From Prevotella sp. (GTDB taxonomy: Bacteria; Bacteroidota; Bacteroidia; Bacteroidales; Dysgonomonadaceae), in NCBI GenBank assembly GCA_031285625.1, contig JAITVV010000080.1, positions 55,902-119,901 on the forward strand: DNA of 64,000 nucleotides, read 5' to 3'. Under the pieces are notes generated by a model. It was not told where the DNA came from. It worked only from the letters and a program-made list of their open reading frames with translations, and ran no database searches. The translations under genes and the position numbers were made by a program. Positions 22,860 to 46,697 of this stretch are shown piece by piece. Each line of letters opens with the position of its first letter. Position 1 is the stretch's first letter.

Positions 22860-22900
22860 GTTACAATTAAAAGTCTGTCAAAAGGTGTTACTTTTGTCAC
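22860..22900 (+). promoter_or_regulatory. Bipartite GTTAC element, copy A
   Basis: GTTACA, 21 nt, then GTTACTTTTGTCAC; the two GTTAC units start 27 nt apart. It includes TACTTTTG, a match to the -7 consensus. Part of it also forms a hairpin (AAAAGGTG 22880-22887 with CACCTTTT 22898-22905) that could end DUF763 transcription. Confidence 0.55.
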
Positions 22901-22984
22901 CTTTTTGCTTTAGTGATTTGTATATCATGTGTTTAATAAAAATGAGAATTTGTCACTTTTTTGCTTTATGATTTTTTTATATGA

Positions 22985-23110
22985 TCAGCCTCCTTGTCAT
23001 TGGCTCCGCTTCGCTCTGCCGAACGTTGTTTCTGAGTGTAATGAAGAATCTCTTAGCTTCTTTCCTTGATAAATGGGTCGGGATGTTTCACTTCGTTCAA
23101 CATGACAAAT
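22985..23110. repeat. Dispersed intergenic repeat of the CHVERSETS type
   Basis: On the minus strand one frame reads CHVERSETSRPIYQG then LRDSSLHSETT. This peptide is a known sign of a non-coding dispersed repeat found across many bacterial genomes (typically GTCATTCTGAGCGAAGCGAA-like ends facing each other), not of a real protein. The ends form partial inverted repeats (CTTCGTTCAACATGACA on the right, GTCATTGGCTCCGCTTCG on the left). Confidence 0.7.
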
Positions 23111-23181
23111 GAAACAAATAAAAATTGCCTGGATGATCATCTGATTATACACTTCTTTAGCATATTTCGGAGAAGAATAAA

Positions 23182-23222
23182 GTAACAATAAAAACTATGT
23201 TTGAAAGTGTTACTTTTGTTAC
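23182..23222 (+). promoter_or_regulatory. Bipartite GTTAC element, copy B, upstream of porP
   Basis: GTAACA, 21 nt, then GTTACTTTTGTTAC, with the same 27-nt phase as copy A. It lies 198 nt before the porP start and contains TACTTTTG. It is a candidate promoter or operator of the porP-porK-porN operon. Confidence 0.55.
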
Positions 23223-23419
23223 CTTTTTGTTGTACTATTTTGTATATCATGTGTTTAATGAAGATGGGAATTTGTTACTTTTTCAAAATCTGTCACTTTT
23301 TTCATATATACATGTATAATCGGACGGAAATTCATCCTAAAGAGGCAATTTATAAGGCATTTAACCGTTATTTAAATAAATTGTACTTACTTTGCACTCC
23401 ATTATCACTATCATTGTGA

Positions 23420-24358
23420 ATGAAGCTTAACTATATAATATTATTCGTTTTATTTCTTGTTCTCGAAACCACTAGTGTTTATGCACAATGGGATACACAG
23501 ATCAGTCAATATTGGCGGATGAAGAATTTCTATAATCCTTCATTTATAGCAGGGGAGAATGTTATAGAGGCTTCTCTATTGCATCGTCGCCAATGGGTGG
23601 GGATCGATAATGCTCCTGTAACATCACTAGTTTCGCTTAACATGCCTCTGAAATTTCTTGGAAAAGAACATGGAGTGGGGGTTATGGTAGTAAATGATAA
23701 GCTTGGTCTGTTTTCTAATACATCGATGATGGGACAATATTCCTATAGATTTAAATTCAAGAAAAACAGATATTTGAGTATCGGATTACAAGCCGGATTG
23801 ATAGATGTTGGTTTCGATGCTTCAGATATAGAAATACCGGACGACCAAAAGACAGGTATAGAACTGCCTCCGGCAATAGGAGATAAGAAACTGGATGTAG
23901 GCTTAGGTATTTCGTGGGTAACGCCAAAATATTATGTAGGAGTGTCCACAACCCATATTTTAGAACCAAAATTTGATATGGATGATGAACATTCTACCTC
24001 TATTGGGCGTATATATTATATGGTAGCAGGATACAATATTCAGATGAATAATCCGTTAATAGAATTGCAACCTTCTGCTCTCTTTAAATCTGATGCTGTA
24101 ACCTATCAATTAGACGTAACGGCAAAAGTTGAATATAAAAAGATGTTCAATGGAGGAATATCTTGGAGAAAAGGAGACGGTTTTGTATTTTTGTTGGGCG
24201 TAAAAATAAAAAATATAGATGCGGGCTATTCATACGACCTTTCGACATCAGCGATATCGAAGGTTAGTAGTGGAAGCCATGAGTTGTTTATACGCTATTG
24301 TCTTCCTCTCGAAAAGAGAAAAGATAGGCATACCGGCAAGAGTATAAGAATACTTTAA
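23420..24358 (+). CDS. porP: T9SS outer-membrane protein, PorP/SprF family
   Basis: A 312-residue protein with a signal peptide (to about residue 22, VYAQ) and the family opening WDTQISQYWRMKNFYNPSF, followed by RRQWVGIDNAP and repeated beta-strands ending in RYCLPL. PorP/SprF proteins are outer-membrane barrels that work with the PorK-PorN ring in type IX secretion. It is the first gene of the porP-porK-porN set, as expected. The family has paralogues outside the core system, but the neighbours support a core role. Confidence 0.85.
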   Translation: MKLNYIILFVLFLVLETTSVYAQWDTQISQYWRMKNFYNPSFIAGENVIEASLLHRRQWVGIDNAPVTSLVSLNMPLKFLGKEHGVGVMVVNDKLGLFSNTSMMGQYSYRFKFKKNRYLSIGLQAGLIDVGFDASDIEIPDDQKTGIELPPAIGDKKLDVGLGISWVTPKYYVGVSTTHILEPKFDMDDEHSTSIGRIYYMVAGYNIQMNNPLIELQPSALFKSDAVTYQLDVTAKVEYKKMFNGGISWRKGDGFVFLLGVKIKNIDAGYSYDLSTSAISKVSSGSHELFIRYCLPLEKRKDRHTGKSIRIL

Positions 24359-24442
24359 GAGATTGATTATATACAAGTTTACAAACATACAAATAAAATA
24401 AACTAAAGGCCGCTGGGATAGTTCAGGGCATTGAAAGTAAAT

Positions 24443-25864
24443 ATGAAACATTTGTTTTTTGCAATAATAGCTTCACTTGCATTGTTTACATCCTGCGGTA
24501 AATCTGTGGGATCAGGCATCGGAGGTGAGGTTACCGGCGAGAAAGGATCGTCGTGGGCAGAACCTTCACCCTATGGTATGGTATTGGTTTCGAGAGGTTC
24601 AATAGAAATGGGACCTGCCGAAAACGATTCTTTGTGGGATATCAAAGCTAATCCGAAAGGGGTATCTGTTGATAACTTCTGGATGGATGAAACTGAGGTT
24701 ACCAATTCTAAGTATCGTCAGTTTGTTTATTGGGTTCGCGATTCTATTATCCGGGAACGGCTTGCCGATCCTGCTTTTGGCGGTGATGAAACATTCAAGA
24801 TCACAGAAGATAGATATGGAGATCCTGTAAAACCGTACCTGAACTGGAAGAAAGCTATTCCTAAAAGACCACTGGAAGAGGAAGAACTGGCTATAAACAG
24901 TGTTACGTTCCTGCATCCTATAACAGGTGTACGTGGTCTTGACCCTAGGCAAATGAACTTTAAATACGAATGGTTTGACTATACAGAAGCTGCAAAGCGT
25001 AGAAACAGGCTTATACCTCAGGAAAGAATCCTTAATACAGATATTACTGTGGATCCTAACCAGTCTGTTATGATATCGAAAGATACTGCCTACATTAATG
25101 ATGAAGGGCTTCCTGTAAACGAAACTATTGTGCGTCTGTTGAGTTCCCTGTTCGATTTTGTGCATACCAAGATTGTAAACATATATCCGGATACTACCGT
25201 TTGGGTAAATGACTTTAATAATGCATATAACGAACCTTATATGCGTATGTATTTTACACATACAGGCTATAATGACTATCCTGTTGTTGGGGTAACATGG
25301 GAGCAGGCAACAGCATTTTGTGAGTGGAGAACTGCTTTTTACAGGATGGGGCAACCTAGAAATGGACGTCCTATCGAGAATTTCCGCCTGCCTACAGAAG
25401 GTGAATGGGAGTTTGCAGCGCGTAATGGTAAAACAGAAAACAAATATCCGTGGGATAAAGAAGGAACAATGGATGAAAAGGCATGCTTTATGGCGAACTT
25501 TAAACCGGGAGAAGGTAACTATACGAAAGATGGTAACCTGATTCCTGCACGTGTTGCCTCTTATGTTCCAAACCGCTTTGGAGTCTACGATCTTGCCGGT
25601 AACGTATCGGAATGGACATCTACAGCTTACACCGAATCAGGAACTGCGCAAATGAATGATATGAATCCTCAATATAAATATGATGCTGCTAAAGAAGACC
25701 CCTATTCTATAAAGAAGAAGGTTGTAAAAGGTGGTTCATGGAAAGATATAGGTCGTAATATCAGAGGAGATATGAGAGAGGGTGAATTCCAAAATCAGCC
25801 CCGCTCATACATCGGGTTCAGATGTGTGAGAACTCAGATCGGTTTTGCAAAATCTAAGAAGTGA
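24443..25864 (+). CDS. porK: T9SS ring lipoprotein PorK/GldK
   Basis: A 473-residue lipoprotein (signal MKHLFFAIIASLALFTSC, Cys18) with a formylglycine-generating-enzyme-like fold: FWMDETEVTNSKYRQFV, YPVVGVTWEQATAFCEWR, RLPTEGEWEFAARNG and GNVSEWT. The long insert with PDTTVWVNDFNNAYNEPYM is specific to GldK/PorK. With PorN it forms the periplasmic ring of the secretion system. The start is ATG 24443 because it begins the lipoprotein signal, not the TTG at 24431. PorL and PorM normally follow; here PorN does. Confidence 0.92.
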   Translation: MKHLFFAIIASLALFTSCGKSVGSGIGGEVTGEKGSSWAEPSPYGMVLVSRGSIEMGPAENDSLWDIKANPKGVSVDNFWMDETEVTNSKYRQFVYWVRDSIIRERLADPAFGGDETFKITEDRYGDPVKPYLNWKKAIPKRPLEEEELAINSVTFLHPITGVRGLDPRQMNFKYEWFDYTEAAKRRNRLIPQERILNTDITVDPNQSVMISKDTAYINDEGLPVNETIVRLLSSLFDFVHTKIVNIYPDTTVWVNDFNNAYNEPYMRMYFTHTGYNDYPVVGVTWEQATAFCEWRTAFYRMGQPRNGRPIENFRLPTEGEWEFAARNGKTENKYPWDKEGTMDEKACFMANFKPGEGNYTKDGNLIPARVASYVPNRFGVYDLAGNVSEWTSTAYTESGTAQMNDMNPQYKYDAAKEDPYSIKKKVVKGGSWKDIGRNIRGDMREGEFQNQPRSYIGFRCVRTQIGFAKSKK

Positions 25865-25872
25865 TTGAAAAG

Positions 25873-26910
25873 ATGAAAAAAATATATCAAATAGCAGCCT
25901 TATTAATTTGCTCTCTGTGTTTTGCATCTTTGGCATATGCACAGGATCAACCGGAGTCTCTCCGCGACAGGCTGGCTAAGAAACAACAGCAACAACAAGG
26001 TACTGCGCAAGATAATGGTCCTAAGGTACCTCAATTATCTGTCCGTGCCGAAATGATGAATGATACACAAACTCAGGATTTGTCGAATGCAACATGGATA
26101 CGCGAAGTATACCGTTTTCTTGACCTTACAAAGGGAAAGAATGCAGCTTTATTTTATCCGGTTCAACCCGTTGGAAATCAGATGAATTTCTATACAATGA
26201 TTTTTAAGCTGATGGGTGATGGAAATTTGGTTGCCTATGATTGGAATAATGGAAAGGATCTATTTGTAGATAAGCTCCGGGTTAATTTTGGAGATGTTCT
26301 GGAAAGGCTGGAGATACCATATCAAAAAAATGGAAATGCCTATTCTTATGATGAATTTAGTATTCCTAGCAATGAGGCATTGGGCTATTACATCAAAGAG
26401 GCATGGTATTTCGATCAGTCGAACTCTGTACTGGGTGTAAAAACAGTGGCTATTTGTCCTGTCTTGTTTCGTCAGGAATATGTTGATGGAATCGACTTGG
26501 GTACAGATCAGGGATTGCGTGAGCCTCAGTTCTGGATTCCTTACGAGAATATTCGTCCGTATGCTGCCCGTATGCCCATTATGGCTTCTGATAAGAATAA
26601 TGTGATGAATAAGACTATCGATGACTATTTCCGTATGCGATTGTATGAAGGAGAAATATACATGACTACAAATATGGAAAATAAGGTCTTGAGTCAGAAA
26701 TATACAACACCAGAAGCTTTAAAAGAAGCTCAGGAAAAGATTGAAGGTGAATTAAAGGAGTTTGATAAGGAATTATGGGTGTTGAATGATTCAATCAATA
26801 ATTTACCTGTAAATAATAAGTCGAAGAATACTAAGACAAAGGCGCCTAAAATGAGTAAGCCTAAAAATTCATCATCTGGTGCTACATATTCGGCCAGAGA
26901 CAGGAGGTAG
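25873..26910 (+). CDS. porN: T9SS ring protein PorN/GldN
   Basis: A 345-residue periplasmic protein with a signal peptide ending AYAQ. The domain with NATWIREVYRFLDLTKGKN, LFYPVQPVGNQMN and TIDDYFRMRLYEGEIY is diagnostic of GldN/PorN. The C-terminus is Lys/Ser-rich and disordered. It partners PorK in the secretion ring. ATG 25873 lies 8 nt after the porK stop; a GTG at 25861 overlaps that stop by 4 nt and is the alternative. A terminator follows, so porN ends the operon. Confidence 0.92.
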   Translation: MKKIYQIAALLICSLCFASLAYAQDQPESLRDRLAKKQQQQQGTAQDNGPKVPQLSVRAEMMNDTQTQDLSNATWIREVYRFLDLTKGKNAALFYPVQPVGNQMNFYTMIFKLMGDGNLVAYDWNNGKDLFVDKLRVNFGDVLERLEIPYQKNGNAYSYDEFSIPSNEALGYYIKEAWYFDQSNSVLGVKTVAICPVLFRQEYVDGIDLGTDQGLREPQFWIPYENIRPYAARMPIMASDKNNVMNKTIDDYFRMRLYEGEIYMTTNMENKVLSQKYTTPEALKEAQEKIEGELKEFDKELWVLNDSINNLPVNNKSKNTKTKAPKMSKPKNSSSGATYSARDRR

Positions 26911-26937
26911 ACTTCATAAATCGATATAGTGAATGGG

Positions 26938-26964
26938 AAGAGTAGCATTTTGCTACTCTTTTTT
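26938..26964 (+). terminator. Intrinsic terminator of porP-porK-porN
   Basis: A 10-bp stem AAGAGTAGCA/TGCTACTCTT with loop TTT and a T-run. Confidence 0.85.
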
Positions 26965-27057
26965 CATTAATTGATATACGTATATTACATTATTATATAA
27001 TATTTATTCTGTATATGTTATATTGATACAATCAATTCTGATTTAGTGTTAATATGT

Positions 27058-27087
27058 TTTGTTTTTTGTCTTTTATCTCTATCTTTG
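27058..27087 (+). promoter_or_regulatory. Promoter of small exported protein
   Basis: TTTG (27058-27061), an 18-nt spacer, and TATCTTTG (27080-27087). Transcription would start near 27094, leaving a leader of about 120 nt that contains a terminator-like hairpin. Confidence 0.6.
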
Positions 27088-27128
27088 TACTGTGATTTAG
27101 GTTATTTAATTTATTATAAGATATAGAC

Positions 27129-27168
27129 CAGAGAATACCATGATACCATAGGTGTTCTCTGTTTTTTT
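27129..27168 (+). promoter_or_regulatory. Terminator-like hairpin in 5' leader (attenuator candidate)
   Basis: An 11-bp stem (CAGAGAATACC with GGTGTTCTCTG, one G-U pair), an 11-nt loop, then seven T. It lies between the promoter at 27058-27087 and the start at 27215, where full termination would silence the gene. It is either an attenuator or the end of a roughly 75-nt small RNA. Confidence 0.5.
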
Positions 27169-27214
27169 ATGTCTTATAGGTAATAAAGATTGTTTAATTA
27201 AGAAAAGATTGGTT

Positions 27215-27580
27215 ATGAAAAGGTTATTAATTTTATTTGCTGCTATTGCAGGTTTTAGTATTAGTTCATTTGCCGAAAAGGATTATGAGGTACTTTGGGT
27301 ATTGAATAACAAATCGACTTTCAATACAGTTACAGACTATGTACAAGCTAGCCCTAATCAACAGGCATTGATGAAGAATATATTTTATGATTCAGCAGAG
27401 AAACTCAAAGATGCACTTATTGAGAACGATCTGCAAGCTGCCGAAAAGGCATTATACTTTAATCTTGTAAATGTAAAATCGGTTTTGACTGTTGACCAGT
27501 ATAAAAAGTATTTGACAATATTAAATGCTACAATACATAATCAGCAAGATAAGTATTTGGCACTTTCCAAGAATAAGTAA
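27215..27580 (+). CDS. Small exported protein of unknown function
   Basis: A 121-residue protein with a signal peptide (MKRLLILFAAIAGFSISSFA) and a helical domain of about 100 residues with no cysteines. No family was recognised. The start is ATG 27215: an upstream in-frame ATG at 27152 lies inside the leader hairpin and does not give a signal peptide. It shares a bidirectional terminator with the converging gene. Confidence 0.7.
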   Translation: MKRLLILFAAIAGFSISSFAEKDYEVLWVLNNKSTFNTVTDYVQASPNQQALMKNIFYDSAEKLKDALIENDLQAAEKALYFNLVNVKSVLTVDQYKKYLTILNATIHNQQDKYLALSKNK

Positions 27581-27594
27581 GAAAGTAATTTATA

Positions 27595-27636
27595 AAATAA
27601 AAGAGGATATCTGATTTCAGATATCCTCTTTTATTT
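27595..27636. terminator. Bidirectional terminator, 20-bp perfect stem
   Basis: Arms 27595-27614 and 27617-27636 around a 2-nt centre, with A/T-rich ends. The stop codon of the minus-strand gene lies in the right arm. Confidence 0.9.
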
Positions 27637-28690
27637 GTAATCTTTTTTTCTTTATATTATCTATTATTAATACTATAACTAAATAGATAGGCATAAGCAT
27701 AAGGAAAAAGAAAAATATAAAAATCATATATTCGGCTCTTCCTGAGGCGTATTTTCCTATTATAAAATTAGTCAGTGAGCATGAAATAAGATATAAGACC
27801 CAATAAATAAACGGAGCCATAATGCTTCCGGCGATTACTACAGGAGAGAATCGTTTGTTCGGATTTTTTATTCTATATCTTATAATAAAGTAAATATGAA
27901 AACTAATTAATAAAATGGATAAAATAAGAAAAAGACCTTCTGGTGTTAGCTTTATCAGCATTTTTGCTAACCAGCTTATTTCAGGTTTATAACTGATTAT
28001 AAGTTCATCTTGCGGTAATTCTGTAAAGTGAAGATGTGTAACAGTGCTGGTAAGGATTGAGTCCGAACTGATATTTGTTTCAAAGATACCTTTTATATTC
28101 GATGTGTTGATCTCTACATCAAGGCTACCAAAAGATCGCCAGTAACGTGCAGGTTTGAGATTATATTGTATTTTAAATTTTTTTATCAGGTCCCAATTAT
28201 CAACTTCTGCTTGTGCTGTATATTCTACATGTATTGTATGTTCCCCTTTTGTTAGGTCTATTTCAAAGTATTTCAGTCCTATGATATTCGGAACATCTTC
28301 CTTAGGATATCTTAGATAGTTATCTAAAGAGTCAATCCATTGAAGCGCATTCGGATTTTCATATGTAGATGGTATTCTTAGTACAGGTATAGTTTGATTG
28401 TCTAGCCATACTGAAAATGATCCGTCTTCAGCATAGCGATTAGTCATAGTGTCAAATATCATCGGAATTTGTTTTCCGTCACGGTCTGATTTTATTCTAT
28501 ATACTACAGTGAACTTTACAGTATAGAAGTCTATAAAAGTTATGAGCAAATGTTCGTGAAGTATATCTATATCTTTACTAGAATATGCCTCAGAGGTAAT
28601 ATCTCCTTTATGAATCGGAGAACTCATGTTTGCATATACTGATGTGTATAATGTAAAAAGAGTAATAAGTATTACAAGCCGTTTTAGCAT
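27617..28690 (-). CDS. Membrane protein of unknown function in porE-porD operon
   Basis: A 357-residue protein with a signal peptide (VYANM), a large beta-rich extracytoplasmic domain (about residues 22-245, with HEHLLITFIDFYTVKFTVVY), and three membrane helices (about 250-345) before a short basic tail. No family was recognised. It starts 5 nt after the porD stop, so it is cotranscribed with porE and porD. Operon membership suggests a link to type IX secretion or the envelope (inference). Confidence 0.7.
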   Translation of the reverse strand: MLKRLVILITLFTLYTSVYANMSSPIHKGDITSEAYSSKDIDILHEHLLITFIDFYTVKFTVVYRIKSDRDGKQIPMIFDTMTNRYAEDGSFSVWLDNQTIPVLRIPSTYENPNALQWIDSLDNYLRYPKEDVPNIIGLKYFEIDLTKGEHTIHVEYTAQAEVDNWDLIKKFKIQYNLKPARYWRSFGSLDVEINTSNIKGIFETNISSDSILTSTVTHLHFTELPQDELIISYKPEISWLAKMLIKLTPEGLFLILSILLISFHIYFIIRYRIKNPNKRFSPVVIAGSIMAPFIYWVLYLISCSLTNFIIGKYASGRAEYMIFIFFFFLMLMPIYLVIVLIIDNIKKKRLQIKEDI

Positions 28691-28695
28691 CCTAA

Positions 28696-29601
28696 TTACC
28701 TTAGGTTATTAATTATATGTCCTTTTGTTGGAAATATCTGATTCAGAGTCTTTTTGATACTTTGCTTCTCTTCGGCTGTTGCTTGTAAACTGATTTGTAC
28801 TATTTCATTCATTTTTGTTTCTCCAATGATCGTAAGCAACGGTGATGCAGGTCGCGCATCATATAATTTCTGAAGATCGGGTAAACATTCTATAATACGT
28901 ATTCTCCCACGTGATGCATTTGCAGCCATTTCATCTAATCCCATACGATGATAATTATACCAGAATGCATGAAAACTCTTAGAGCTCTCGTCAGTTAAGG
29001 CTACAGCAAGATCATAACGGTTGTCATTCTTTCCGGAGAAAGGTTCCCATCCCTTTGTATTAAGGGATTGTGCCATATTAGCGATTTCCATTGCTCTTGC
29101 AAAATAGGGTGCCCCTCCATTCAGCGAAAAAGAATCAAAATCCAACCCTATAACAATGTTAGCATAAAAAGAAAGTACAGCAACCAGATTGCTATTTAAT
29201 ACAATGTTATTTAGATCGAGAGATTCACCTTGGGTATAAGTAAATTCAAATTTTGTATCTCTGAAATTCAGTAGGGTAGCGATGTAAGTTGAATTATATA
29301 CTGGACGTCTCGACGAAACCTGTATTTCGGCAGAGAAACTATTATCTGCAGTCATCTCATTCATCGAAATGACTATAGTACAATCGATACGTTCATTCTT
29401 GTTGAAGTTTGTATCTGTCCATTTCTGATCATTCAATAATTGATTGACTGATCTTTCTAATGAAGAAAATAAAGCTTCGTTTGCTGCAGGTAGTTTACGG
29501 GTATTTAATGTAAGCTTCGCGTTTAGCTCCTGCGCCTTTATAGTAGCGGATATAAGTATTACTGATATGATGAATAAAACTAGTATTCTCATCTTATTCA
29601 A
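28696..29601 (-). CDS. porD: PorD-like (DUF4835) T9SS-associated protein
   Basis: A 301-residue exported protein (signal peptide to about residue 23, KAQE). QELNAKLTLNTRKLPAANE, then LERSVNQLLNDQKWT, FEFTYTQGESL and GGAPYFARAMEIANMAQ match the DUF4835 family, which is annotated as type IX secretion protein PorD in some databases. The exact role is not established. It overlaps the end of porE by 8 nt, so the two are coupled. Confidence 0.75.
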   Translation of the reverse strand: MNKMRILVLFIISVILISATIKAQELNAKLTLNTRKLPAANEALFSSLERSVNQLLNDQKWTDTNFNKNERIDCTIVISMNEMTADNSFSAEIQVSSRRPVYNSTYIATLLNFRDTKFEFTYTQGESLDLNNIVLNSNLVAVLSFYANIVIGLDFDSFSLNGGAPYFARAMEIANMAQSLNTKGWEPFSGKNDNRYDLAVALTDESSKSFHAFWYNYHRMGLDEMAANASRGRIRIIECLPDLQKLYDARPASPLLTIIGETKMNEIVQISLQATAEEKQSIKKTLNQIFPTKGHIINNLR

Positions 29602-31576: not shown

Positions 31577-31606
31577 GACTTTTTACATCTAAGTTATTAC
31601 AGTCTA

Positions 31607-31614
31607 CAAATATA
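31607..31614 (-). promoter_or_regulatory. -7 element close to porE
   Basis: Minus-strand TATATTTG matches TAnnTTTG, 30 nt before the porE ATG. It may be a second promoter besides the bipartite element 181 nt upstream. Confidence 0.5.
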
Positions 31615-31756
31615 ACTCATTTCCTTGTAGAATATTGCTTTTATGACATGGAAACGTAATCAGGATGTAGTATATCTCCAAAAAGTAACAAAGCCGAGAG
31701 GTAATAATTATCCCATTTATTTAAGTTGTTGTATGCCAGTTTTGTATTGTGAAAAG

Positions 31757-31797
31757 GTGACAAAGGTAACAGCTTTCAAGCTATTTTTGCATGTAAC
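31757..31797 (-). promoter_or_regulatory. Bipartite GTTAC element, copy C, upstream of porE
   Basis: Minus strand: GTTACA, 21 nt, then GTTACCTTTGTCAC; the phase is 27 nt as in the other copies. It contains the -7 match TACCTTTG. It is 181 nt from the porE start and oriented towards it. Confidence 0.55.
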
Positions 31798-31839
31798 TTT
31801 TTGTATTATCATCCTTTTTCGAGAAATACAGAAAATAAT

Positions 31840-31869
31840 AAAGCAAGGAATCAAATCAATCCTTGCTTT
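31840..31869 (-). terminator. Terminator of recA
   Basis: A 10-bp stem AAAGCAAGGA/TCCTTGCTTT with a 10-nt loop, 32 nt beyond the recA stop. Confidence 0.75.
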
Positions 31870-31900
31870 ATATAAGATAATTTTATGTATATTAAATACT

Positions 31901-32926
31901 TTAGTTTTTCTTTTCCTTCAATGCATTGAATATAAGCACTTCCAGTTCATCAGCCAGTTCGGGATTATCTTTTATTACCTCTTTTGCCGATTCACGGCCT
32001 TGCGCTAATTTAGTATCGTTGTAGCTGTACCACGAACCACTTTTCTTGATAATACCCAGTTCCGATCCTAAATCAATGATTTCTCCTGAACGGGAAATGC
32101 CTTCACCATACATGATGTCAAATTCGGCTTTACGGAACGGAGGAGCCACCTTGTTTTTTGCCACTTTTACACGGGTCTGGCTACCTTTTACTTCGTCCCC
32201 GTCTTTTAACTGTCCTATACGGCGTATATCAAGACGTACAGATGAATAATACTTCAGGGCATTACCTCCGGTTGTTGTTTCCGGTGAACCGAACATAACC
32301 CCGATCTTATCACGCAACTGGTTGATAAAAATACATGTTGTACTTGTCTTATTGATTGCTGCAGTAAGTTTACGTAATGCCTGAGACATCAAGCGTGCTT
32401 GTAATCCCATTTTAGAATCACCCATCTCACCTTCCAGTTCGGCTTTTGGCGTAAGAGCTGCAACCGAGTCTATAACAATAATATCTATTGCTGACGAGCG
32501 GATAAGCTGTTCCGCAATTTCCAGAGCTTGTTCTCCGCTATCAGGTTGTGATATATAAAGATTTTCAACATCTACACCCAATTTCTCTGCATAAAAGCGA
32601 TCGAAAGCATGCTCAGCATCGATAAATGCAGCTATACCACCTGCTTTTTGAGCTTCGGCGATAGCATGTATCGCTAAAGTAGTTTTACCTGAAGACTCAG
32701 GGCCATATATTTCCACTACTCTGCCACGTGGGTATCCACCTACGCCAAGAGCAGCATTTAATGCTATTGAACCTGTAGAAATAACGGCTACCTCATCGAC
32801 TTTTTCGTCGCCCATTTTCATTATCGAGCCTTTACCGTAACTCTTTTCAATTTTGTCCATTGCAGCATGCAGAGCTTTTAGTTTCTCTGTATTTGGTGCT
32901 GCTTTCTTTTCTTTTTCTTCTGCCAT
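31901..32926 (-). CDS. recA: Recombinase RecA
   Basis: A 341-residue RecA. Walker [25 protein letters not shown], Walker B region [19 protein letters not shown], and loops [15 protein letters not shown] and [14 protein letters not shown] are all intact. It forms ATP-dependent filaments on single-stranded DNA for repair and SOS signalling. It lies 32 nt after bcp on the same strand and is the last gene of that group. No SOS box was identified. Confidence 0.97.
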
Positions 32927-32958
32927 TATTTTCTTGTAATTATATGTAAGTAAACTTA

Positions 32959-33417: not shown

Positions 33418-33419
33418 AA

Positions 33420-33944: not shown

Positions 33945-33983
33945 AGCTCGTTTTGTTTGTTTGTTTTTATCTTTAGTCCAATT

Positions 33984-35786: not shown

Positions 35787-35825
35787 TTAAAACGAAAATG
35801 TATAACTCATAAAATACAGCACATT

Positions 35826-36128: not shown

Positions 36129-36154
36129 ATTGACAAAGTAATAAATTACTATAA

Positions 36155-36190
36155 AAAAGGATTATCTGATACAGATAATCCTTTTCTTTT
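36155..36190. terminator. Terminator after YtxH-like gene
   Basis: A 14-bp stem (AAAAGGATTATCTG with CAGATAATCCTTTT) and a T-rich tail. It may also serve the converging amidinotransferase gene. Confidence 0.85.
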
Positions 36191-36197
36191 TATGTTT

Positions 36198-37112: not shown

Positions 37113-37129
37113 AATCTTCTTATTTGATA

Positions 37130-37137
37130 CAAATATA
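37130..37137 (-). promoter_or_regulatory. -7 element of amidinotransferase-fold gene
   Basis: Minus-strand TATATTTG, 18 nt before the start codon. Confidence 0.5.
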
Positions 37138-37176
37138 CAGTTTTCAAACGGTAATGAAAAAACAATAGGGTGATAC

Positions 37177-37755: not shown

Positions 37756-37757
37756 AC

Positions 37758-39874: not shown

Positions 39875-39891
39875 ATTGATAAAGTTAAGTA

Positions 39892-39923
39892 AAAAACTCA
39901 AAGCTAATTTGCTTTGAGTTTTT
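39892..39923. terminator. Terminator between aldehyde dehydrogenase gene and lutA
   Basis: A 13-bp stem AAAAACTCAAAGC/GCTTTGAGTTTTT, loop of 6. Read-through would still allow cotranscription. A minus-strand TAACTTTA, one base off the -7 consensus, lies between it and lutA. Confidence 0.8.
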
Positions 39924-39936
39924 AATCTTATTTTAA

Positions 39937-41373
39937 TTAGCCTTTTGTTTCCAGATATACGACATGTGTTTGGAGATATTCTTCAAGTCCGTGTTTTCCA
40001 TCTGCACCACCAATACCCGATTTACGCCATCCGGCATGGAATCCCTGCATAGCCTCAAAGTTTTCCCGGTTGATGTAGGTTTCGCCAAATTTGAGAGCTC
40101 TAACCAGTTTAAAGGCTGTATCCAGATTCTGAGTATAGACAGACGATGTTAAACCATATTCACAATCATTAGCCCATGTAATAGCATCGTTTATATCCGT
40201 AAAATCTACAATAGGTAATACAGGCCCAAATGTTTCTTCCTGTATGATGTCCATTTTTTGAGTAGCATCTGTAAGTATAGTCGGTTCAAAGAAATAGCCC
40301 TTGTCTCCAATGCGATTTCCTCCCAAGGCCAGTTTTGCCCCTTGTTTTATCGCTTTCTCTACTTTTTCACTTACTGATTTCAAGGCATTTGCTTCTACAA
40401 GAGGTCCCATATCCAGATCTGTGATTTCGGATGGATTTCCTACTTTCACAGCTTTCATTCCTGCAATTAATTTCTCAAGAAAAGCTTCTTTTACCTTTTT
40501 GTGAACATATACACGCTCTGCACAATTGCAGACTTGCCCTGTGTTGATTACACGCGATGCTATAATAGACTTTACAGCTAAGTCAAGATCTGCATCGTCC
40601 ATAACAATAGCCGGAGCTTTACCTCCCAGTTCGAGCGATACTTTTGTTACATTGGTAGCCGCAGCTTCCATTGTTTGTATTCCTGCGCTCACACTACCAG
40701 TGAGGCTGACCATTCCAACCTTAGGGTTAGCTGCCAGTTCATGCCCTATAACAGAACCACGCCCCATGACCAGATTGAACACTCCGGCAGGCACACCAAC
40801 TTCTTCTACAATCTGTGCAAATACATAAGCATTTTCAGGTGTTATCTGGCTTGGTTTCACTACTATGGTATTTCCGGTTACCAGAGCTGGTGCAGCTTTA
40901 CGTGCTATAAGGAAGAAAGGGAAATTCCACGGCAGAATCCCGGTTGTAACTCCGATTGGTTTCTTAAATAGAAAGATATTTTCATTTGGGCGGTCGCTTT
41001 GGATAATTTCACCTTCGTATCTGCGTGCCCATCCAGCCATATATTCAAGATAATCGGCAGTAAACAGGACTTCAACATTAGCCAAACCTTGTGTTTTACC
41101 TCCTTCACGAACAATTATATCGGTTAATTCTTTTTCTCTTTTACGGATCCCTGCTGCAATTTTTATCAGGTAACCGGCTCTTTCTACTGCAGGCGTCTTT
41201 TCCCATTTATCCTGAGCTTTCTCTGCTGCATCTATTGCTTTTTTTGCATCGTCAATAGTACCATCAGGCATTTTGGAGATTACTTCTTCGGTAGACGGAT
41301 TTAGTACATTGATCCATTTTCCGGATGTGTTTTGTACAAACTTTCCATCGATAAACATTTTTAATTCTTTCAT
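39937..41373 (-). CDS. aldA: Aldehyde dehydrogenase, AldA/lactaldehyde dehydrogenase-like
   Basis: A 478-residue NAD(P)-dependent aldehyde dehydrogenase. PWNFPFFLIARKAAPAL is the cofactor site, VSLELGGKAPAIV carries the general-base Glu, and NTGQVCNCAERVYV the catalytic Cys. FGETYINRENFEAMQGFHAG near the end is typical of the AldA (lactaldehyde) group. Lactaldehyde from fucose or rhamnose would give L-lactate, which LutABC downstream can oxidise to pyruvate. The class is firm; the substrate comes from similarity and context. Confidence 0.88.
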   Translation of the reverse strand: MKELKMFIDGKFVQNTSGKWINVLNPSTEEVISKMPDGTIDDAKKAIDAAEKAQDKWEKTPAVERAGYLIKIAAGIRKREKELTDIIVREGGKTQGLANVEVLFTADYLEYMAGWARRYEGEIIQSDRPNENIFLFKKPIGVTTGILPWNFPFFLIARKAAPALVTGNTIVVKPSQITPENAYVFAQIVEEVGVPAGVFNLVMGRGSVIGHELAANPKVGMVSLTGSVSAGIQTMEAAATNVTKVSLELGGKAPAIVMDDADLDLAVKSIIASRVINTGQVCNCAERVYVHKKVKEAFLEKLIAGMKAVKVGNPSEITDLDMGPLVEANALKSVSEKVEKAIKQGAKLALGGNRIGDKGYFFEPTILTDATQKMDIIQEETFGPVLPIVDFTDINDAITWANDCEYGLTSSVYTQNLDTAFKLVRALKFGETYINRENFEAMQGFHAGWRKSGIGGADGKHGLEEYLQTHVVYLETKG

Positions 41374-41523
41374 GATATTCTGGTTTAACGTTAGTTGTGG
41401 TAAATGATTTTACTAAATTACTAAATTTAAGACAATATTTATTTTGATTTTTGACAATAATATTCCATAATATGATGGTTTAAGATTATTTCATATATTT
41501 ACACCCTAATCAAAATTTGCAAA
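41374..41523. other. Divergent intergenic region aldA/epimerase
   Basis: 150 nt, very AT-rich, with only near-consensus -7 boxes (TAAATTTA on the minus strand, TATATTTA on the plus strand). No other feature was seen. Confidence 0.4.
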
Positions 41524-42477
41524 ATGAAAAGAGTAGCTATTACCGGAGCAGCAGGAAACTTAGGCGGGTTGTTGGCTCAGGGTATGAAGAATTTAAGTGT
41601 AAATTTAAACTTATTGATTCATAAAAAAGATGTAGCTGAAGATTTAAAGGGTAAAGAAAGTATTTCTGTTTTTAGGGTTGATCTGGCTAAACAGGAAACA
41701 CTAAATGAGGCTTTGACGAATGTTGATGTAATTGTGCATTTTGCAGGTATATTGTTTAAAGCTAATCCTGAGAAATTCTTACCAACCACAAATACGCAAT
41801 ATTTTAGAAATCTATTAGATGTTGCTGTAAAACAAAAAGTGAAGCGCGTAATTCTTATCAGCTTTCCTCATGTTGAAGGTGAGAATACTCCAGATAACCC
41901 GGCTACAGGAATACTTACGGGAAACCCCGAATCGATGCACGCACGCACAAGACTTGAAGAGGAAAAGTTATTATTCCAATATGGAGAAAAATATGGATTT
42001 GAAGCTGTTTCGTTACGTGTGGGAATGGTTTATGGCAAAGGTATTCTGATGATAGATGCCGGACAGTGGTTTGCGCGTCATTGGTTGCTGGGTATATGGA
42101 AGAAGCCTACTTATATTCATCTGATTTCAAAGGATGATTTTGTAGAAGCAACAATCGCCGCCTCTTTAAATCTTAATGTAAAGGGCATCTACCATATTGG
42201 TGATGAGGGAATACAGACATTGCAGCAATTTTTGGATGACATAACCGTATATAAAGGAAATCATAAACCTTGGCGCATGCCTGTATGGATGATAATGACA
42301 GCAGCCCGGGGATTTGAATTATTCTCTGCTATATTCGGTACACAGAGTCCATTAACTATTGATTTCGTAAAAATAGGAATGACATCTTATTATGGCGATA
42401 CCAGCCGTATGCGAACAGAGTTATTACCACAACTTAAATATAAGACGTATAAGGAAGGTATGGGGCTTTTTGATTGA
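41524..42477 (+). CDS. NAD-dependent epimerase/dehydratase family protein
   Basis: A 317-residue short-chain dehydrogenase-like protein. AITGAAGNLGGLLAQGMK is the GxxGxxG nucleotide site. The classical YxxxK motif is not clear; MHARTRLEEEKLLFQYGEKYG occupies the usual place, so it may be an atypical SDR. The substrate is unknown. Confidence 0.78.
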   Translation: MKRVAITGAAGNLGGLLAQGMKNLSVNLNLLIHKKDVAEDLKGKESISVFRVDLAKQETLNEALTNVDVIVHFAGILFKANPEKFLPTTNTQYFRNLLDVAVKQKVKRVILISFPHVEGENTPDNPATGILTGNPESMHARTRLEEEKLLFQYGEKYGFEAVSLRVGMVYGKGILMIDAGQWFARHWLLGIWKKPTYIHLISKDDFVEATIAASLNLNVKGIYHIGDEGIQTLQQFLDDITVYKGNHKPWRMPVWMIMTAARGFELFSAIFGTQSPLTIDFVKIGMTSYYGDTSRMRTELLPQLKYKTYKEGMGLFD

Positions 42478-42488
42478 TAATATAAAAT

Positions 42489-42518
42489 AATAATGGCTGT
42501 ATTTATACAGCCATTATT
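42489..42518. terminator. Bidirectional terminator
   Basis: A 14-bp stem (AATAATGGCTGTAT with ATACAGCCATTATT) with A/T flanks, between convergent genes. Confidence 0.85.
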
Positions 42519-42526
42519 ATTTTATA

Positions 42527-44095
42527 TTATCTCGGTGCTAATCCGTCATCATCACTATTGGATTTCGTATTGATTGTAATTGGTTTTTGAAAGAAATCCA
42601 TAAATCTGTCATATGTACTTTCATAATACATTTTGCTGAATAATACGTCAGATCCCAATAGGGGTTCATCATCATACTTTATTTTGCTGGATATTTTCGC
42701 ATTACAGTTTTCTTTTGATGCTTCTGAACCATATTTCGAACATTCTTGCTGGAAGACAAAAAAGCGTGCAAGATTCTTAGATGAAGATAGTTTGTATTGT
42801 AAAACAAGATAGTTTGTTTTAAAGATTATAGCATCTTTTCTTTTAGGAGTATCAATCGCCTGCTCACTTATTCTTATCATATCATCCAGTGTATTACTTA
42901 AGTCTGCATGTGCAGCAAGCGGAAACCGGATTATAGATGAATTTTCGAGATCTGCAAATGCAGTCAGATAATCTTCTTTAGATATAAGATAAAATGTTTC
43001 ACCTGCATATTTCTCAAATCTGGTAATCAATATATAATCTTTTTCATCATATCTGAAGTTTCTCATTTCATATCTTCCTACTGTCTCAAAGCGGTAAGAA
43101 TAATTTGAATCTGTGACCCATTCGCTCTCACTATTCAGATACCATCCTTCGATTCCAGAAAAAGAAGCGATGGGAGCCGATATGGTAGCTTTTTCTTTAT
43201 TCTTTCTTATTGTGATATTTTCATTGTCTTGTACAGGCATTGCTTGTATTGTATCAGCTGCTACTGAAGGTCTGGGTTCAAAGTCGGATTCTTCAATCTC
43301 TGTTCTGGGAGCTATACTATTACTATTCTGTTGTGATGGCTCTGTATTCGTTGTTGCGACAGTTGCTGCTATGTCTCCCAAGTCAAACTCTTCATTTATT
43401 ATTTGCTTTGGTGCCGGTAATAAGATTTTATTAAATTCGTCCCATTTTGTTTCAAAATAGCTGCTCGTTAAGGCTTTGCTTGTTTCACTTGATTTTTCTG
43501 GTAGAAGAAAACGTACCACATCTTCGTTATCTACATGTTGGGCGTTTATGCTGAAATCATATTTAGGTGAGCTTTCGCCTGCTAGTATAGATTGTCCCAT
43601 TAACTGCAATAATTTGCTTGCAGAGTATATTCCATCATTATCAGACATGTAGCCATACGATGAAGAGTGGATCGTGAGTGTTTCTCCTGTTTTTGCTGCT
43701 ACAGTTGCTGCTATACTGGCATACGATTTACTAGTCATCAGATAATAATAAACCCGGCGTTCATTCTGTGTATTCGAGATATATACAGTTGTTTCATATA
43801 ATAACGCATACAAATCTTGTGCCCCGTTTTTCAGGGAAATTAGTTGTACCCATTTAAAGTTTTGCGGAACAGTATATTGTGTTGATTCATTTAGTTCTGT
43901 ATCAGATATAGCGTTCTGATTTGAAATCCAGTTACCCACGAGATCCTGTTGCCAGCCTGTAGCAACTCTCAGCTTTTCAGACTGACTTTGTATGGTCAGG
44001 CTATTGCTCTGTTTTGGATTCCGGCTTTGCCCTACTAACTGAGATGTAAAGCAGAAGGCAAATACGGTCAGGGTAAATAGTTTAAAGTATTTCAT
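42527..44095 (-). CDS. Exported protein with duplicated domain, unknown function
   Basis: A 522-residue protein with a signal peptide (ending LVGQ). Two similar modules are seen: residues ~45-130 (GWQQDLVGNWISNQN, WVQLISLKNGAQDLYALLYE, YYYLMTSKSYASI) and ~315-395 (GWYLNSESEWVTDSN, DYILITRFEKYAGETFYLIS, KEDYLTAF). They are joined by a Ser/Thr/Glu-rich linker. Several Cys lie near the C-terminus. No family was recognised. Confidence 0.7.
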   Translation of the reverse strand: MKYFKLFTLTVFAFCFTSQLVGQSRNPKQSNSLTIQSQSEKLRVATGWQQDLVGNWISNQNAISDTELNESTQYTVPQNFKWVQLISLKNGAQDLYALLYETTVYISNTQNERRVYYYLMTSKSYASIAATVAAKTGETLTIHSSSYGYMSDNDGIYSASKLLQLMGQSILAGESSPKYDFSINAQHVDNEDVVRFLLPEKSSETSKALTSSYFETKWDEFNKILLPAPKQIINEEFDLGDIAATVATTNTEPSQQNSNSIAPRTEIEESDFEPRPSVAADTIQAMPVQDNENITIRKNKEKATISAPIASFSGIEGWYLNSESEWVTDSNYSYRFETVGRYEMRNFRYDEKDYILITRFEKYAGETFYLISKEDYLTAFADLENSSIIRFPLAAHADLSNTLDDMIRISEQAIDTPKRKDAIIFKTNYLVLQYKLSSSKNLARFFVFQQECSKYGSEASKENCNAKISSKIKYDDEPLLGSDVLFSKMYYESTYDRFMDFFQKPITINTKSNSDDDGLAPR

Positions 44096-44123
44096 AAGGC
44101 ATTTATCGATTTATAAGTATTTA

Positions 44124-44492
44124 TTATTCTATTTTCTTCCCAAACGGAACAAGTGCCAGATGTATTAGTTTGAAATGTTGTTTTCCAAACGGAATACCGA
44201 TAATCGTTATACAGAATAATACTCCCCAAAACAGATGTGTGAGTGCTATCCAGAATCCTCCAATAATAATCCATATTATGTTCATAATAAGGCTGAGGCA
44301 ACCTGAAGAATTTTCAATTTCCTTGACACTGCTTCCAAAAGGCCAAAGGGCTAATATTCCTAATTTGAAAGCTTGTAACCCAAATGGGATACCAATGATT
44401 GTGAGCATTAATAAAAAACCGGCAATAAAATATTCAAGGGCAATCATAAAGCCACCAAAAATTACCCATATAATATTTCCTAATGTCTTCAT
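44124..44492 (-). CDS. YccF-domain inner-membrane protein
   Basis: A 122-residue protein made of two YccF repeats, each with a Gly/Trp-rich helix and the motif TIIGIPFGxQxFKL (about residues 30-43 and 92-105). Four hydrophobic segments are expected. The family is widespread and of unknown function. It precedes the duplicated-domain protein gene on the same strand with a 28-nt gap. Confidence 0.85.
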   Translation of the reverse strand: MKTLGNIIWVIFGGFMIALEYFIAGFLLMLTIIGIPFGLQAFKLGILALWPFGSSVKEIENSSGCLSLIMNIIWIIIGGFWIALTHLFWGVLFCITIIGIPFGKQHFKLIHLALVPFGKKIE

Positions 44493-44653
44493 ATATTTTT
44501 ATTTATAGTTGTTTGGGCAATGAACGCCAGTCCAAAATATTTTGACAAATATAGCATGATTTTGAATATGGATAACTCTTTTTCTCTATTTTTCAGAAAT
44601 GTAAATTCTTATTAATGGAAAATAATTCGTTTTTTTGTAACAAAAATAGTATT

Positions 44654-45037
44654 ATGTTTAGAATTTGTTATATGACATTTATACTCCTTATTTGCTGTTC
44701 GAGTAGCTGCAAGCGTTTCAATAGTGATGAGCTAAATCAGCAGATGATACAAGGAAAGTGGAGGCTTATGGATGTGAAGCGTAAAGCATATGATTCTATA
44801 CATATAGATTACGATAAACAAATTACTTATCTTGTTTTTGATGGGAATAAATGTACGCAGGAAATGGTAGGGCTTACGACTTCAAACTATACGTTTACCA
44901 TACATAATTATTCATTAACCCTGTATGTTGATTCGGTATTTGAAAATAAACTGGAAATAAATACATTAACTGAGGACTCCCTTATATTTACCCAAGGGCG
45001 TGATAGTAAATGGCAGTATATAAGAATGGAGCAATAA
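44654..45037 (+). CDS. Lipocalin-like lipoprotein
   Basis: A 127-residue lipoprotein. The signal MFRICYMTFILLICCSSSC leads to the lipid-modified Cys, so ATG 44654 is preferred over 44615. The mature part has MIQGKWRLMDVKRKAYD and beta-strands typical of lipocalin-like proteins. The ligand is unknown. Confidence 0.65.
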   Translation: MFRICYMTFILLICCSSSCKRFNSDELNQQMIQGKWRLMDVKRKAYDSIHIDYDKQITYLVFDGNKCTQEMVGLTTSNYTFTIHNYSLTLYVDSVFENKLEINTLTEDSLIFTQGRDSKWQYIRMEQ

Positions 45038-45056
45038 TCTATTGCTCCACTTTTTA
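45027..45056. terminator. Terminator between convergent lipoprotein genes
   Basis: A 10-bp stem TGGAGCAATA/TATTGCTCCA with loop ATC, then CTTTTT. The plus-strand stop codon is inside the stem. Confidence 0.8.
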
Positions 45057-46046
45057 TTTAACTCTTTTGAAATATCTTTTCTCCTGGTAATATAATTCCG
45101 GTTTTGCATCCGTTCTTAATTGATTTAAGTCAATAAATGAATCTATGGTTTGTCCGTTGTCAGGATCTTTTCTATCTTGCCATTCTGTTATCCAAAGCCA
45201 GAACGCCTGAGGGCCCCATTTTTCGGTTTTTTCATTATATTCATTAGGAGCAATATAGTATATAACATCATCAACTATTTTTACCTCCAGATTTCTATAT
45301 GATGTTTCATCCCAAAACATATTTCCATCATCATCCCAACCTTTTAGCTTAAGAGAAACTCTTTTCTTTCCCTGGGTATCGATGGTAAATGTAAATGAGT
45401 TTCCTTTGAGGGTATCCAATTCTAATTGGGAATGCTTCTCTTCATATTTACCATTATTGAGTAATAAATAATCATATATTTCCCATGTTCCTAGCATTTC
45501 ATTAAATCGGGTATCCATATCTATCTTCTCTATATCAGGATGCACTTTAGGTGCTCTTTCAAGATTACGCATAGCCCTGTTATCCTTAACATTCCATTTA
45601 TCAATCGTAAAGAATTTAAATACACTTATTGTTTCTTTCTTTTCCAAGAAAACCCCAATAGTTTCAATATTCTGGTAGGCAGTATCCCGTCCATTATGCA
45701 TGGTCACATCCATTATAATAGATTGGCCATCTATCTTGTATGTACCTTTATCAATAACCTGATCTACAAGATTTAAGTTTTCAAAGATGTAAGAACCGTC
45801 CGATCCTTTATAAAACTTATTTATAAAGCCATCATAGTCTGGTCTGCGGAAAACCGGTAAATTGGTACCTCCTGAAGATACCTGTTTGGCTGAATAGTAT
45901 ACCTCCCAAGTACCAAGAAGATCATCTTCCTTTGGATTTTCAATAGGTTTAGGAGGAATTTCTTTTTCATCCGGGCTGTCACTATTGCAACTACTGAAGC
46001 CTAATAAGGTAAGGGCAAGAAAGATAAGATATAAGTATTTTTTCAT
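45054..46046 (-). CDS. Lipoprotein with two lipocalin-like domains
   Basis: A 330-residue lipoprotein (Cys20, GFSSCNSD) with a Pro/Glu-rich linker and two similar beta domains beginning LLGTWEVYYSAK (about residue 43) and MLGTWEIYDYLLL (about residue 185). The GTWE start is typical of lipocalin-like lipoproteins. It converges on the single-domain lipoprotein gene at 44654. No ligand is predicted. Confidence 0.68.
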   Translation of the reverse strand: MKKYLYLIFLALTLLGFSSCNSDSPDEKEIPPKPIENPKEDDLLGTWEVYYSAKQVSSGGTNLPVFRRPDYDGFINKFYKGSDGSYIFENLNLVDQVIDKGTYKIDGQSIIMDVTMHNGRDTAYQNIETIGVFLEKKETISVFKFFTIDKWNVKDNRAMRNLERAPKVHPDIEKIDMDTRFNEMLGTWEIYDYLLLNNGKYEEKHSQLELDTLKGNSFTFTIDTQGKKRVSLKLKGWDDDGNMFWDETSYRNLEVKIVDDVIYYIAPNEYNEKTEKWGPQAFWLWITEWQDRKDPDNGQTIDSFIDLNQLRTDAKPELYYQEKRYFKRVK

Positions 46047-46216
46047 TTTGAATGAACCGTTGTGTATTGGTTTATGTATTGCAAAGATACGATAAATATA
46101 TAAAAGAATAAGATACTATTTGTTTTTTAACTAGATACTGTGCTGTAACATACTGTTTTGCATCATTCTGTGTTTATAACGAATCAATATGGTTATTATT
46201 GCCTGTCAATTAAGTT

Positions 46217-46636
46217 TTATTGCGTTAAGTCTTGTTTTTTCAACAGTAGTTTATAACTATAATCATAATCTGTGACCATTGCAGTCATCAGGTTGCTGTT
46301 GATAGATAGCACTTTTAGAGATATTTGCTTCGCTTTTCTATTGTGCGCATTGCCTTTTAGGAAGTCAAGATAGATAATGCTTATAACATCTTCGTGTATT
46401 GTATATTTACCTGCTACATTGAATAAAATAACACCATCTGATGCTTCACCCAAATGGAAAGTATCATTGTCGCGAAAGATATATGTATATGGAAACTCTA
46501 TATCCTCTATCTGGTTATTTATTTCTTTTACTTCCACCCAGCGTCCGATTATATCCTCCTTGTTCAATAATACATTTTGTGAAAAAGTATTTTGAAAGAA
46601 GGGAAAGAATAGTAGAAGTATTATGACTTTCTTCAT
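46217..46636 (-). CDS. Small exported lipocalin-like protein
   Basis: A 139-residue protein with signal peptide MKKVIILLLFFPFFQNTFSQ, followed by IIGRWVEVKEINNQ and a beta-rich domain. The start is ATG 46636; the earlier in-frame ATG at 46663 overlaps the -7 region of element copy D. This is the gene closest to any copy of the bipartite element, 21 nt away. Confidence 0.65.
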   Translation of the reverse strand: MKKVIILLLFFPFFQNTFSQNVLLNKEDIIGRWVEVKEINNQIEDIEFPYTYIFRDNDTFHLGEASDGVILFNVAGKYTIHEDVISIIYLDFLKGNAHNRKAKQISLKVLSINSNLMTAMVTDYDYSYKLLLKKQDLTQ

Positions 46637-46656
46637 TATTTGTATTTTGTTAAAAA

Positions 46657-46697
46657 GTGACAAAGGTAACAGCTTTTTACCGTTTCTGTATTGTAAC
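46657..46697 (-). promoter_or_regulatory. Bipartite GTTAC element, copy D
   Basis: Minus strand: GTTACA, 21 nt, then GTTACCTTTGTCAC, phase 27 nt. TACCTTTG at 46661-46668 would start transcription near 46654, 18 nt before the start codon, which fits a promoter. Confidence 0.6.

Follow-up and report, generated by a model that had tools for sequence, protein, structure and literature searches.

Bipartite GTNAC elements before gene starts in Dysgonomonas: probable docking sites of one putative DNA-binding protein, not a special switch for protein secretion

Regulators which bind in tandem, such as the MerR-like BldC, use multi-site operators built from direct repeats in variable unit number, while REPINs and other RAYT-borne repeats have paired conserved ends and a variable filler, lie between genes and occur many times per genome. 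Few promoter types are known in Bacteroidota. As described in the consulted part of one report, the primary sigma factor of Bacteroidetes, sigma-ABfr, uses a promoter with a -33 TTTG and a -7 TAnnTTTG box, and a near-palindromic second promoter motif of Bacteroides thetaiotaomicron, PM2, has centres at -10 and -30 and is found at 75 coding genes, with oxidative stress genes enriched (PMC7366714). In Porphyromonas gingivalis the PorX site, in the sections available, reads CG(A/C)AAAAA-N5-T(T/A)TCTTTGC (PMC8265659, PMC4800418). Here a bipartite GTNAC element is described which occurs four times in a stretch of 64,000 nucleotides (the window), in three cases upstream of genes of the type IX secretion system (T9SS), and which recurs throughout a Dysgonomonas genome. 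A first-pass annotation had called a shared alternative-sigma promoter or operator plausible for the four copies, with reference to T9SS control by PorX and SigP, an interpretation which was partly supported: the family is not a special switch for protein secretion and most likely represents docking sites of one putative control protein.

All four copies were confirmed at the positions given and match the pattern GTWACA-N21-GTTACYTTTGTYAC exactly, and 100 dinucleotide shuffles gave no match. Copy A (22860..22900, + strand; units GTTAC, GTTAC, and GTCAC) lies 519 nt before porP, beyond copy B (23182..23222, +; units GTAAC, GTTAC, and GTTAC), which is 197 nt from the porP ATG. Copy C (31757..31797, - strand) lies upstream of porE, whose TTG start (31576) is 180 nt away. 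Between the end of copy D (46657..46697, -) and the ATG (46636) of the gene for a small secreted protein there are 20 nt. About 60 nt downstream of copies A and B are also held in common, and therefore this pair looks like a local duplication.

Alignment of the 41 exact copies found in the genome holding the window (G000; 4.84 Mb in 96 contigs) revealed a longer unit, AAAAA-GTNACA-N21(±1)-TGTNAC-YTTT-GTNAC-YTTTT, or in expanded form AAAAA-GTNACA-N3-AAAAA-N6-AAAA-N2-TGTNAC-YTTT-GTNAC-YTTTT. Conservation thus extends beyond the pattern to an A-tract at -5..-1, A-tracts at 9-13 and 20-23, T26 (41 of 41 copies) and YTTTT at 41-45. The element combines an inverted with a tandem GTNAC site: box 1 is the reverse complement of box 2, and box 2 is repeated in tandem at 9 nt. 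Three tandem units occur in some copies (L013 and L026, and aroB and L010 of G018). The exact 27-nt phase noted for the four window copies is dominant, in that 47 of 59 distinct elements of this genome have an N21 spacer when an expression permitting N19-N23 is used; it is also partly a product of the pattern chosen, since N20 (7), N22 (4), and N19 (1) occur. Unit 2 reads NACYTTTG, with the A and TTTG invariant in the exact copies. Its reading as a -7 match, TACYTTTG, suits 52 of the 82 copies found in this genome with the middle bases free and is unsafe, the first T being replaced by C in 26 and A in 4, and frequently by C or A in relatives. Further boxes accompany the unit. An extra TTTGTNACTTTTT unit follows about 50 (49-82) nt downstream in 16 of the 41 exact copies; for two more, the downstream unit of this type belongs to a neighbouring copy. 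Across 133 elements examined in 14 genomes an upstream box AAWTTATCTWATA lies mostly 30-60 nt before the element, a distance at which a TTATCTWATA box is frequent. The density of TRTCTW is 7.5 per kb in the 110 nt before the 41 copies and 1.9 in the loci at large (fourfold), and 13 of the 18 intergenic WTTRTCTWATA boxes in 853 kb of G000 have an element within the next 170 nt.

The exact pattern is found in G000 on both strands (21 and 20 copies), and its reversed control is not found. With 41 copies, or 82 when the middle bases of GTNAC are left free, the four window copies are drawn from a family spread over the whole genome; at 4 against about 1.1 per 64 kb (from 82 GTNAC-type copies in 4.84 Mb) the window is only moderately above average. 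With a position weight matrix (PWM), 38 rows in 853 kb of G000 scored above 12 bits and no row of the reversed control did so; removal of two reverse-strand self-matches and one overlapping shift left 35 copies, which by scaling extrapolate to about 200 per genome. As both the PWM and the regular expressions derive from the pattern itself, degenerate copies are under-counted. All 35 lie outside called genes, and 32 run in the direction of the gene that follows (p=4e-7), while in a cruder count 36 of the 41 exact copies point at the next gene start. Similar results came from D. mossii (G017; 1.2 Mb scanned, 28 of 32 co-oriented, one overlapping a called gene, reversed control 0) and from named Dysgonomonas contigs (0 of 49 in genes; co-orientation in 40 of the 42 copies with a called gene downstream), the gene calling behind orientations, distances, and promoter-box counts being crude. 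Random orientation or placement within genes, which the first-pass annotation had named as grounds for refuting its reading, is not what was found. An intrinsic terminator was considered and rejected, as the upstream gene does not have the same orientation in 10 of 35 (G000) and 10 of 32 (D. mossii) cases.

Among 61 genomes the exact pattern is present in 10, G000 included, all from one genus. The genome_contigs collection contains it in 52 stretches, 45 of them Dysgonomonas; the other seven matches were judged chance, as all lack the A-tracts. Four of these overlap a called ORF (open reading frame; L054, L067, L078, and L080) and one (L071) is intergenic among other GTTAC units. The remaining two, in an Alistipes (L066) and a Prevotella (L068) metagenome-assembled genome, are simple GTTAC arrays (GTTACATCT and GTTACTTTT) which match by repetition and were judged unrelated. 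When two mismatches are allowed, 16 of 25 genus genomes (G000 included) match, led by sp. 521 with 123 and including G000 with 94, and nine have none, among them G006, G013, and G016; some of these rows are a single site read on each strand, and a count of 1-4 does not rise above the reversed control. When the middle bases are freed and one mismatch is permitted, matches in 101 family genomes belong mainly to the genus; outside it, G065 has 11 and G064 has 3 (both from one sister genus), and the rest 0-1, which is control level. The middle base of unit 2 varies by species: G011 has 10 A, 4 T, and 2 C (n=16, AACYTTYG in 10), among the matches listed sp. 511 has T and sp. 521 mostly C (CACYTTTG), and CACYTTTG is present in 16 of 17 copies on contig C2 of D. 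mossii. A TAnnTTTG reading is therefore unsafe in several species. Clusters of near-identical elements about 1.5-17 kb apart were also observed (G014 C7:11892-41208; G018 C12, C30, C31, and C39), each clustered copy perhaps standing before a paralogous gene.

Conservation was examined for 20 element-bearing genes of G000, whose orthologues were sought in G017, G014, G018, and G024; 18 genes gave at least one, and 56 of the 74 table rows were used, the 18 weakest (mostly other glycosyltransferases) having been dropped. A full element within 420 nt is kept at orthologues of aroB (4/4), alkD (3/3), GT2 (3/4), L010 (1/1), and a uxaA-like gene (1/2). At tex it is present in G000 and all four relatives, with a degenerate first unit in D. 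mossii; across the genus, 5 of 23 readable genomes have it, a G004 row sliced 92 nt off not being counted. The names Tex, alkD, GH26, GT2, and uxaA are presumed assignments from the sequences. Among the matches listed, the gene after copy D has the element only in G000 (1/18). Where elements are kept, the units stay and the filler is replaced, except in the sisters G017 and G014, whose fillers are still alike. Within G000, the 1081 pairs formed by 47 copies have a mean filler identity of 0.320 against 0.320 in shuffled columns, and the upstream flanks 0.326 against 0.326. Apart from a few exceptions, recent duplication does not account for the copies. Their fixed units in unrelated filler agree with recognition by a protein, as the annotation had suggested, and not with copying in the recent past.

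The genes which follow the elements are mixed. An ORF was called within 420 nt of 38 of the 41 exact copies, giving 37 distinct ORFs, of which 36 were scanned with NCBIfam (a 68-aa ORF of L009 was left out). Above the cut-off are dxs, glycerate kinase, coaBC, aroB, panB, a repair radical SAM protein (TIGR03916), ligA, dihydroorotase (pyrC), ilvA, PorP, and PorE; likenesses below it include QueE, an AmpG-like transporter, arylsulfatase, chitinase, galactarate dehydratase, and a RecB-like helicase, and 16 of the 36 proteins have no NCBIfam match at 1e-10. PorP and PorE are the only T9SS parts. At 20 readable porP loci of Dysgonomonas (rows G008 and G020, cut by contig ends, stand outside this set), a full element was found in 3, single units in 1 and no element in 16; a TAnTTTG-like box stands right before porP in 17 of the 20, element or not, the exceptions being G006, G013, and G016. 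A T9SS regulon was therefore rejected, with 2 of 36 downstream proteins belonging to the system and porP lacking a full element at 17 of 20 loci. Identity with the PorX or SigP site is likewise not supported, as the published sequences, compared by eye in the parts of the sources available, differ from GTNAC (PMC8265659, PMC4800418). The scan of the whole genome and its relatives with downstream genes listed, which the first-pass annotation had put forward, hence established a genome-wide family in Dysgonomonas and did not bear out the link to T9SS.

Two forms of the element are distinguished by their distance to the start codon. The short form, to which copy D belongs, has its YTTTG 20-59 nt from the ATG, the distance at which canonical TAnnTTTG boxes are most frequent. 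It is found at 13 of 27 genes with an element in G000; another TAnnTTTG box at 5-60 nt is missing from all 13 but present in 135 of 402 element-free genes (p=0.012). In the long form the ATG is more than 60-65 nt away (14/27 in G000, 19/27 in D. mossii), and a canonical box follows close to the ATG in 4 of 14 cases in G000 and, in D. mossii, in 10 of the 18 elements that lie within 300 nt. Both T9SS cases are long forms, with a promoter-like box between element and start at porP (TACTTTG, directly before the gene, 23388..23394, +) and at porE (TATATTTG, canonical and -7-like, 30 nt before the start, 31607..31614, -).

Taken together, a genus-specific regulatory element at gene starts, serving as the multi-site operator of one putative trans-acting DNA-binding protein, is the preferred explanation, with a probability of roughly 55%. 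Such a protein would read an asymmetric half-site, GTNAC with a pyrimidine/T tract after it. Along the DNA it would meet an inverted site (AAAAA-GTNAC-A), a stretch of about 21 nt in which two A-tracts are spaced about one helical turn apart, and finally two or three sites in tandem, 9 nt from one to the next (T-GTNAC-YTTT-GTNAC-YTTTT). In short forms the tandem sites would occupy the usual position of the -7 box, and binding there may directly control, or replace, promoter recognition. Long-form elements lie further upstream, often followed by an ordinary promoter box, and may act as an upstream operator or a second promoter. The operator reading is favoured because of the inverted and tandem half-sites, the A-tracts, the ±1 nt tolerance, the orientation to genes, and the maintenance at orthologues.

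Several observations weigh against it. No binding protein was found for the element, and its target genes have no common function. A full element is absent from all four orthologues each of dxs, coaBC, panB, ligA, and GH26, from those of GH18 (0/3), glxK (0/2), a sulfatase (0/1), and L036 (0/1, partial), and is found at only 1 of 4 for MFS, pyrC, and L015 each and 1 of 3 for ABC, although the ABC orthologues of G017 and G014 retain two units. Two pairs of fillers reach 0.91 identity against a shuffled maximum of 0.82, a few downstream flanks reach 0.60-0.72 against 0.57, and one pair of G000 copies (C26:12455 and C41:245) is identical. The short forms are a minority (13/27 in G000 and 8/27 in D. 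mossii), and the same promoter-box test in D. mossii, with the same direction, is not significant (1/8 against 208/566, p=0.27).

The main rival is an alternative sigma promoter, in which GTNACA would be a -35-type and TGTNACYTTTGTNAC a -10-type box read by one sigma factor of the extracytoplasmic function (ECF) type across a 21±1 nt spacer. A spacer tolerance of ±1-2 nt resembles that of promoters, the short forms replace the -7 box, and Flavobacterium psychrophilum has seven ECF sigma factors and an ECF-type motif according to the part of the report available (PMC9723704). However, both boxes carry the same site in opposite directions and the second is repeated in tandem, a layout more in keeping with a single DNA-binding domain than with a pair of sigma domains; the long forms, with the canonical boxes that follow some of them, also argue against a promoter, so that this rival is considered unlikely. 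A structured leader RNA, in which the inverted repeat AAAAAGTNACA/TGTNACTTTT would form a hairpin in the 5' untranslated region, might explain why short forms lie directly before the ATG. Yet the central pair of such a hairpin is not kept (T-T, A-C, or A-A at the middle in 26 of 59 G000 copies), a canonical box stands downstream of some long forms, and Rfam gave no match at the four window sites, which makes a leader highly improbable.

Two further explanations were considered. With dozens to perhaps 200 sites per genome and no common gene function, the elements could be sites of a nucleoid-associated protein which organises the chromosome, with regulation a mere by-product, and the unit-2 base in D. 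mossii indeed follows chromosome region. Neither the strong orientation to gene starts nor the short ATG distance of the short forms would be expected from such sites, and the regional effect is absent in G000 and weaker in G014, leaving this reading improbable. Alternatively, a dispersed mobile repeat (a miniature inverted-repeat transposable element or a REPIN-like repeat) might have settled between genes by chance. The near restriction to one genus, copy numbers from 0 to 123 between species, other repeats in the same spacers, the alike flanks of copies A and B, the near-identical clusters of G014 and G018 and a few related pairs all fit this origin, as do four matches each to the Y1 transposase family (PF01797) in the element-rich G018 and G024. 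PF01797 (Y1/RAYT) gave no match in G000, G017, and G014, and it is present in G012 and G013, which have no elements; a RAYT is thus not needed for the element. Mean identity of filler and upstream flank at the level of shuffled columns, the orientation bias, and the kept orthologous copies also speak against mobility. No exact empty site, from which the ends of such a repeat could be set, was found. As a main explanation the mobile repeat was rejected on the transposase search and pairwise identity, in spite of the Y1 genes of G018 and G024, and it is held to be very improbable.

The regional behaviour of unit 2 deserves separate description. In D. mossii it reads GTCAC on two contigs (C1 and C2) but GTTAC on a third (C3), on both strands and at similar GC. 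Of the 59 matches in this genome, 39 among those listed have no mismatch, and these divide into 24 C and 3 T on C1/C2 against 0 C and 12 T on C3; scanned stretches (C2 to 800 kb, C3 to 400 kb) gave 16 C and 1 T against 0 C and 15 T. Base composition was rejected as the cause, the GC of sampled loci being 0.374-0.378 on C1-C3. The trend in the sister G014 is weaker (p=0.003; p=0.02 when one group of near-identical copies is set aside), and none was seen in G000 (p=0.26). As D. mossii and G014 share ancestry, the trend counts as one observation rather than two. It is conceivable, if rather doubtful, that the sites belong to an undescribed global DNA-binding system of Dysgonomonas, with one protein serving 60 to perhaps 200 bipartite GTNAC sites whose letters drift in concert by species and, in D. 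mossii, by chromosome region. If true, a global regulator or nucleoid protein would be co-evolving with its sites and distinguishing chromosome domains.

Additional features surround the window copies. The boxes gaTTATCTAATTATAAgg (22812..22829, +), aaatTATCTTATATAAAG (31864..31883, -, adjoining a 341-aa ORF which ends at 31901), and ttTATCTATAAC (46717..46730, -) lie upstream of copies A, C, and D, respectively. Downstream, a fourth unit TTTGTCACTTTTTTG follows copy A (22949..22963, +), further units TTTGTTACTTTTT and CTGTCACTTTTTT follow copy B (23271..23303, +), and a fourth unit TTTGTTACTTTTT follows copy C (31680..31692, -). The neighbouring genes had been named correctly, as NCBIfam identified porP (TIGR03519; 23420..24358, +), porE (NF052230; 29594..31576, -), PorK (TIGR03525), PorN (TIGR03523), and PorD (NF052317); the gene after copy D (46217..46636, -) encodes a 139-aa secreted protein without an NCBIfam match. 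A second dispersed repeat type (for example GAGATCCTTCGTTCCTCAGGATGACAAA or CGGGATGTTTCACTTCGTTCAACATGACAAATG) shares the same spacers, often right before the element, and is found at 22990-23115 of the window and upstream of elements in L002, L022, L023, L025, L028, L031, and L034. At 24431-26910 porN directly follows porK, with porL and porM not between them. In D. mossii gldM/porM (C2:391806) is on a different contig from porP (C3:528847), and no GldM match was found in the G000 assembly; a split of porK-porN from porL-porM may be common in the genus. Rfam gave four weak matches elsewhere within 22600-47000 (E up to 1). Those at 42476-42598 (both strands), a threonine operon leader at 32.1 bits (cut-off 55) and mir-556, lie at the junction of two ORFs ending at 42477 and 42527.

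In Bacteroidota, a long cis-element so common in one genus and nearly absent elsewhere suggests a global regulator or promoter class peculiar to that lineage. Some of the sites persist at orthologues although the filler between their units has changed, which makes Dysgonomonas a favourable system for tracing the joint evolution of a regulator and all its sites. The results also caution against naming a regulon from four copies, as the same sites stand before many unrelated genes. Searches for literature on Dysgonomonas promoters found nothing; these searches were weak, and no claim is made that the element is unpublished.

Among known systems, T9SS control by PorX and SigP in P. gingivalis resembles the element in acting at DNA upstream of por genes; the PorX site and the predicted SigP motif, as given in the sections available, do not match it, and its targets are not specific to T9SS. 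The T9SS-linked SM6 motif of F. psychrophilum, in the part of the report at hand, does not resemble GTNAC (PMC9723704), and the operator of BtAraR (GTGTTACTTTTACAC), as far as the source was accessible, is a different palindrome (PMC4666351). Unit 2, NACYTTTG, partly resembles the -7 box of sigma-ABfr promoters, and short forms share the ATG distance of canonical boxes. The element differs in that its first T is often C or A in relatives, GTNACA replaces the -33 TTTG, and a third GTNAC and the A-tracts are conserved; in 141 canonical boxes of G000, GTNAC was found upstream in 6, scattered and never at the element's position, and there was no strong -33 box. PM2, compared by its description in the consulted part of its report rather than by letters, is likewise a genome-wide motif of two related boxes upstream of the start, although its centres lie at -10 and -30 and oxidative stress genes are enriched among its targets. 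REPINs and RAYT-borne repeats share paired ends, variable filler, intergenic position, and high number with the element, which differs by having no RAYT match in three element-rich genomes (four each in G018 and G024), no general copy relationship, and an orientation to genes. Finally, operators of the BldC type share with the element tandem repeats of variable number, whereas the 9-nt step and the inverted distal site set the element apart.

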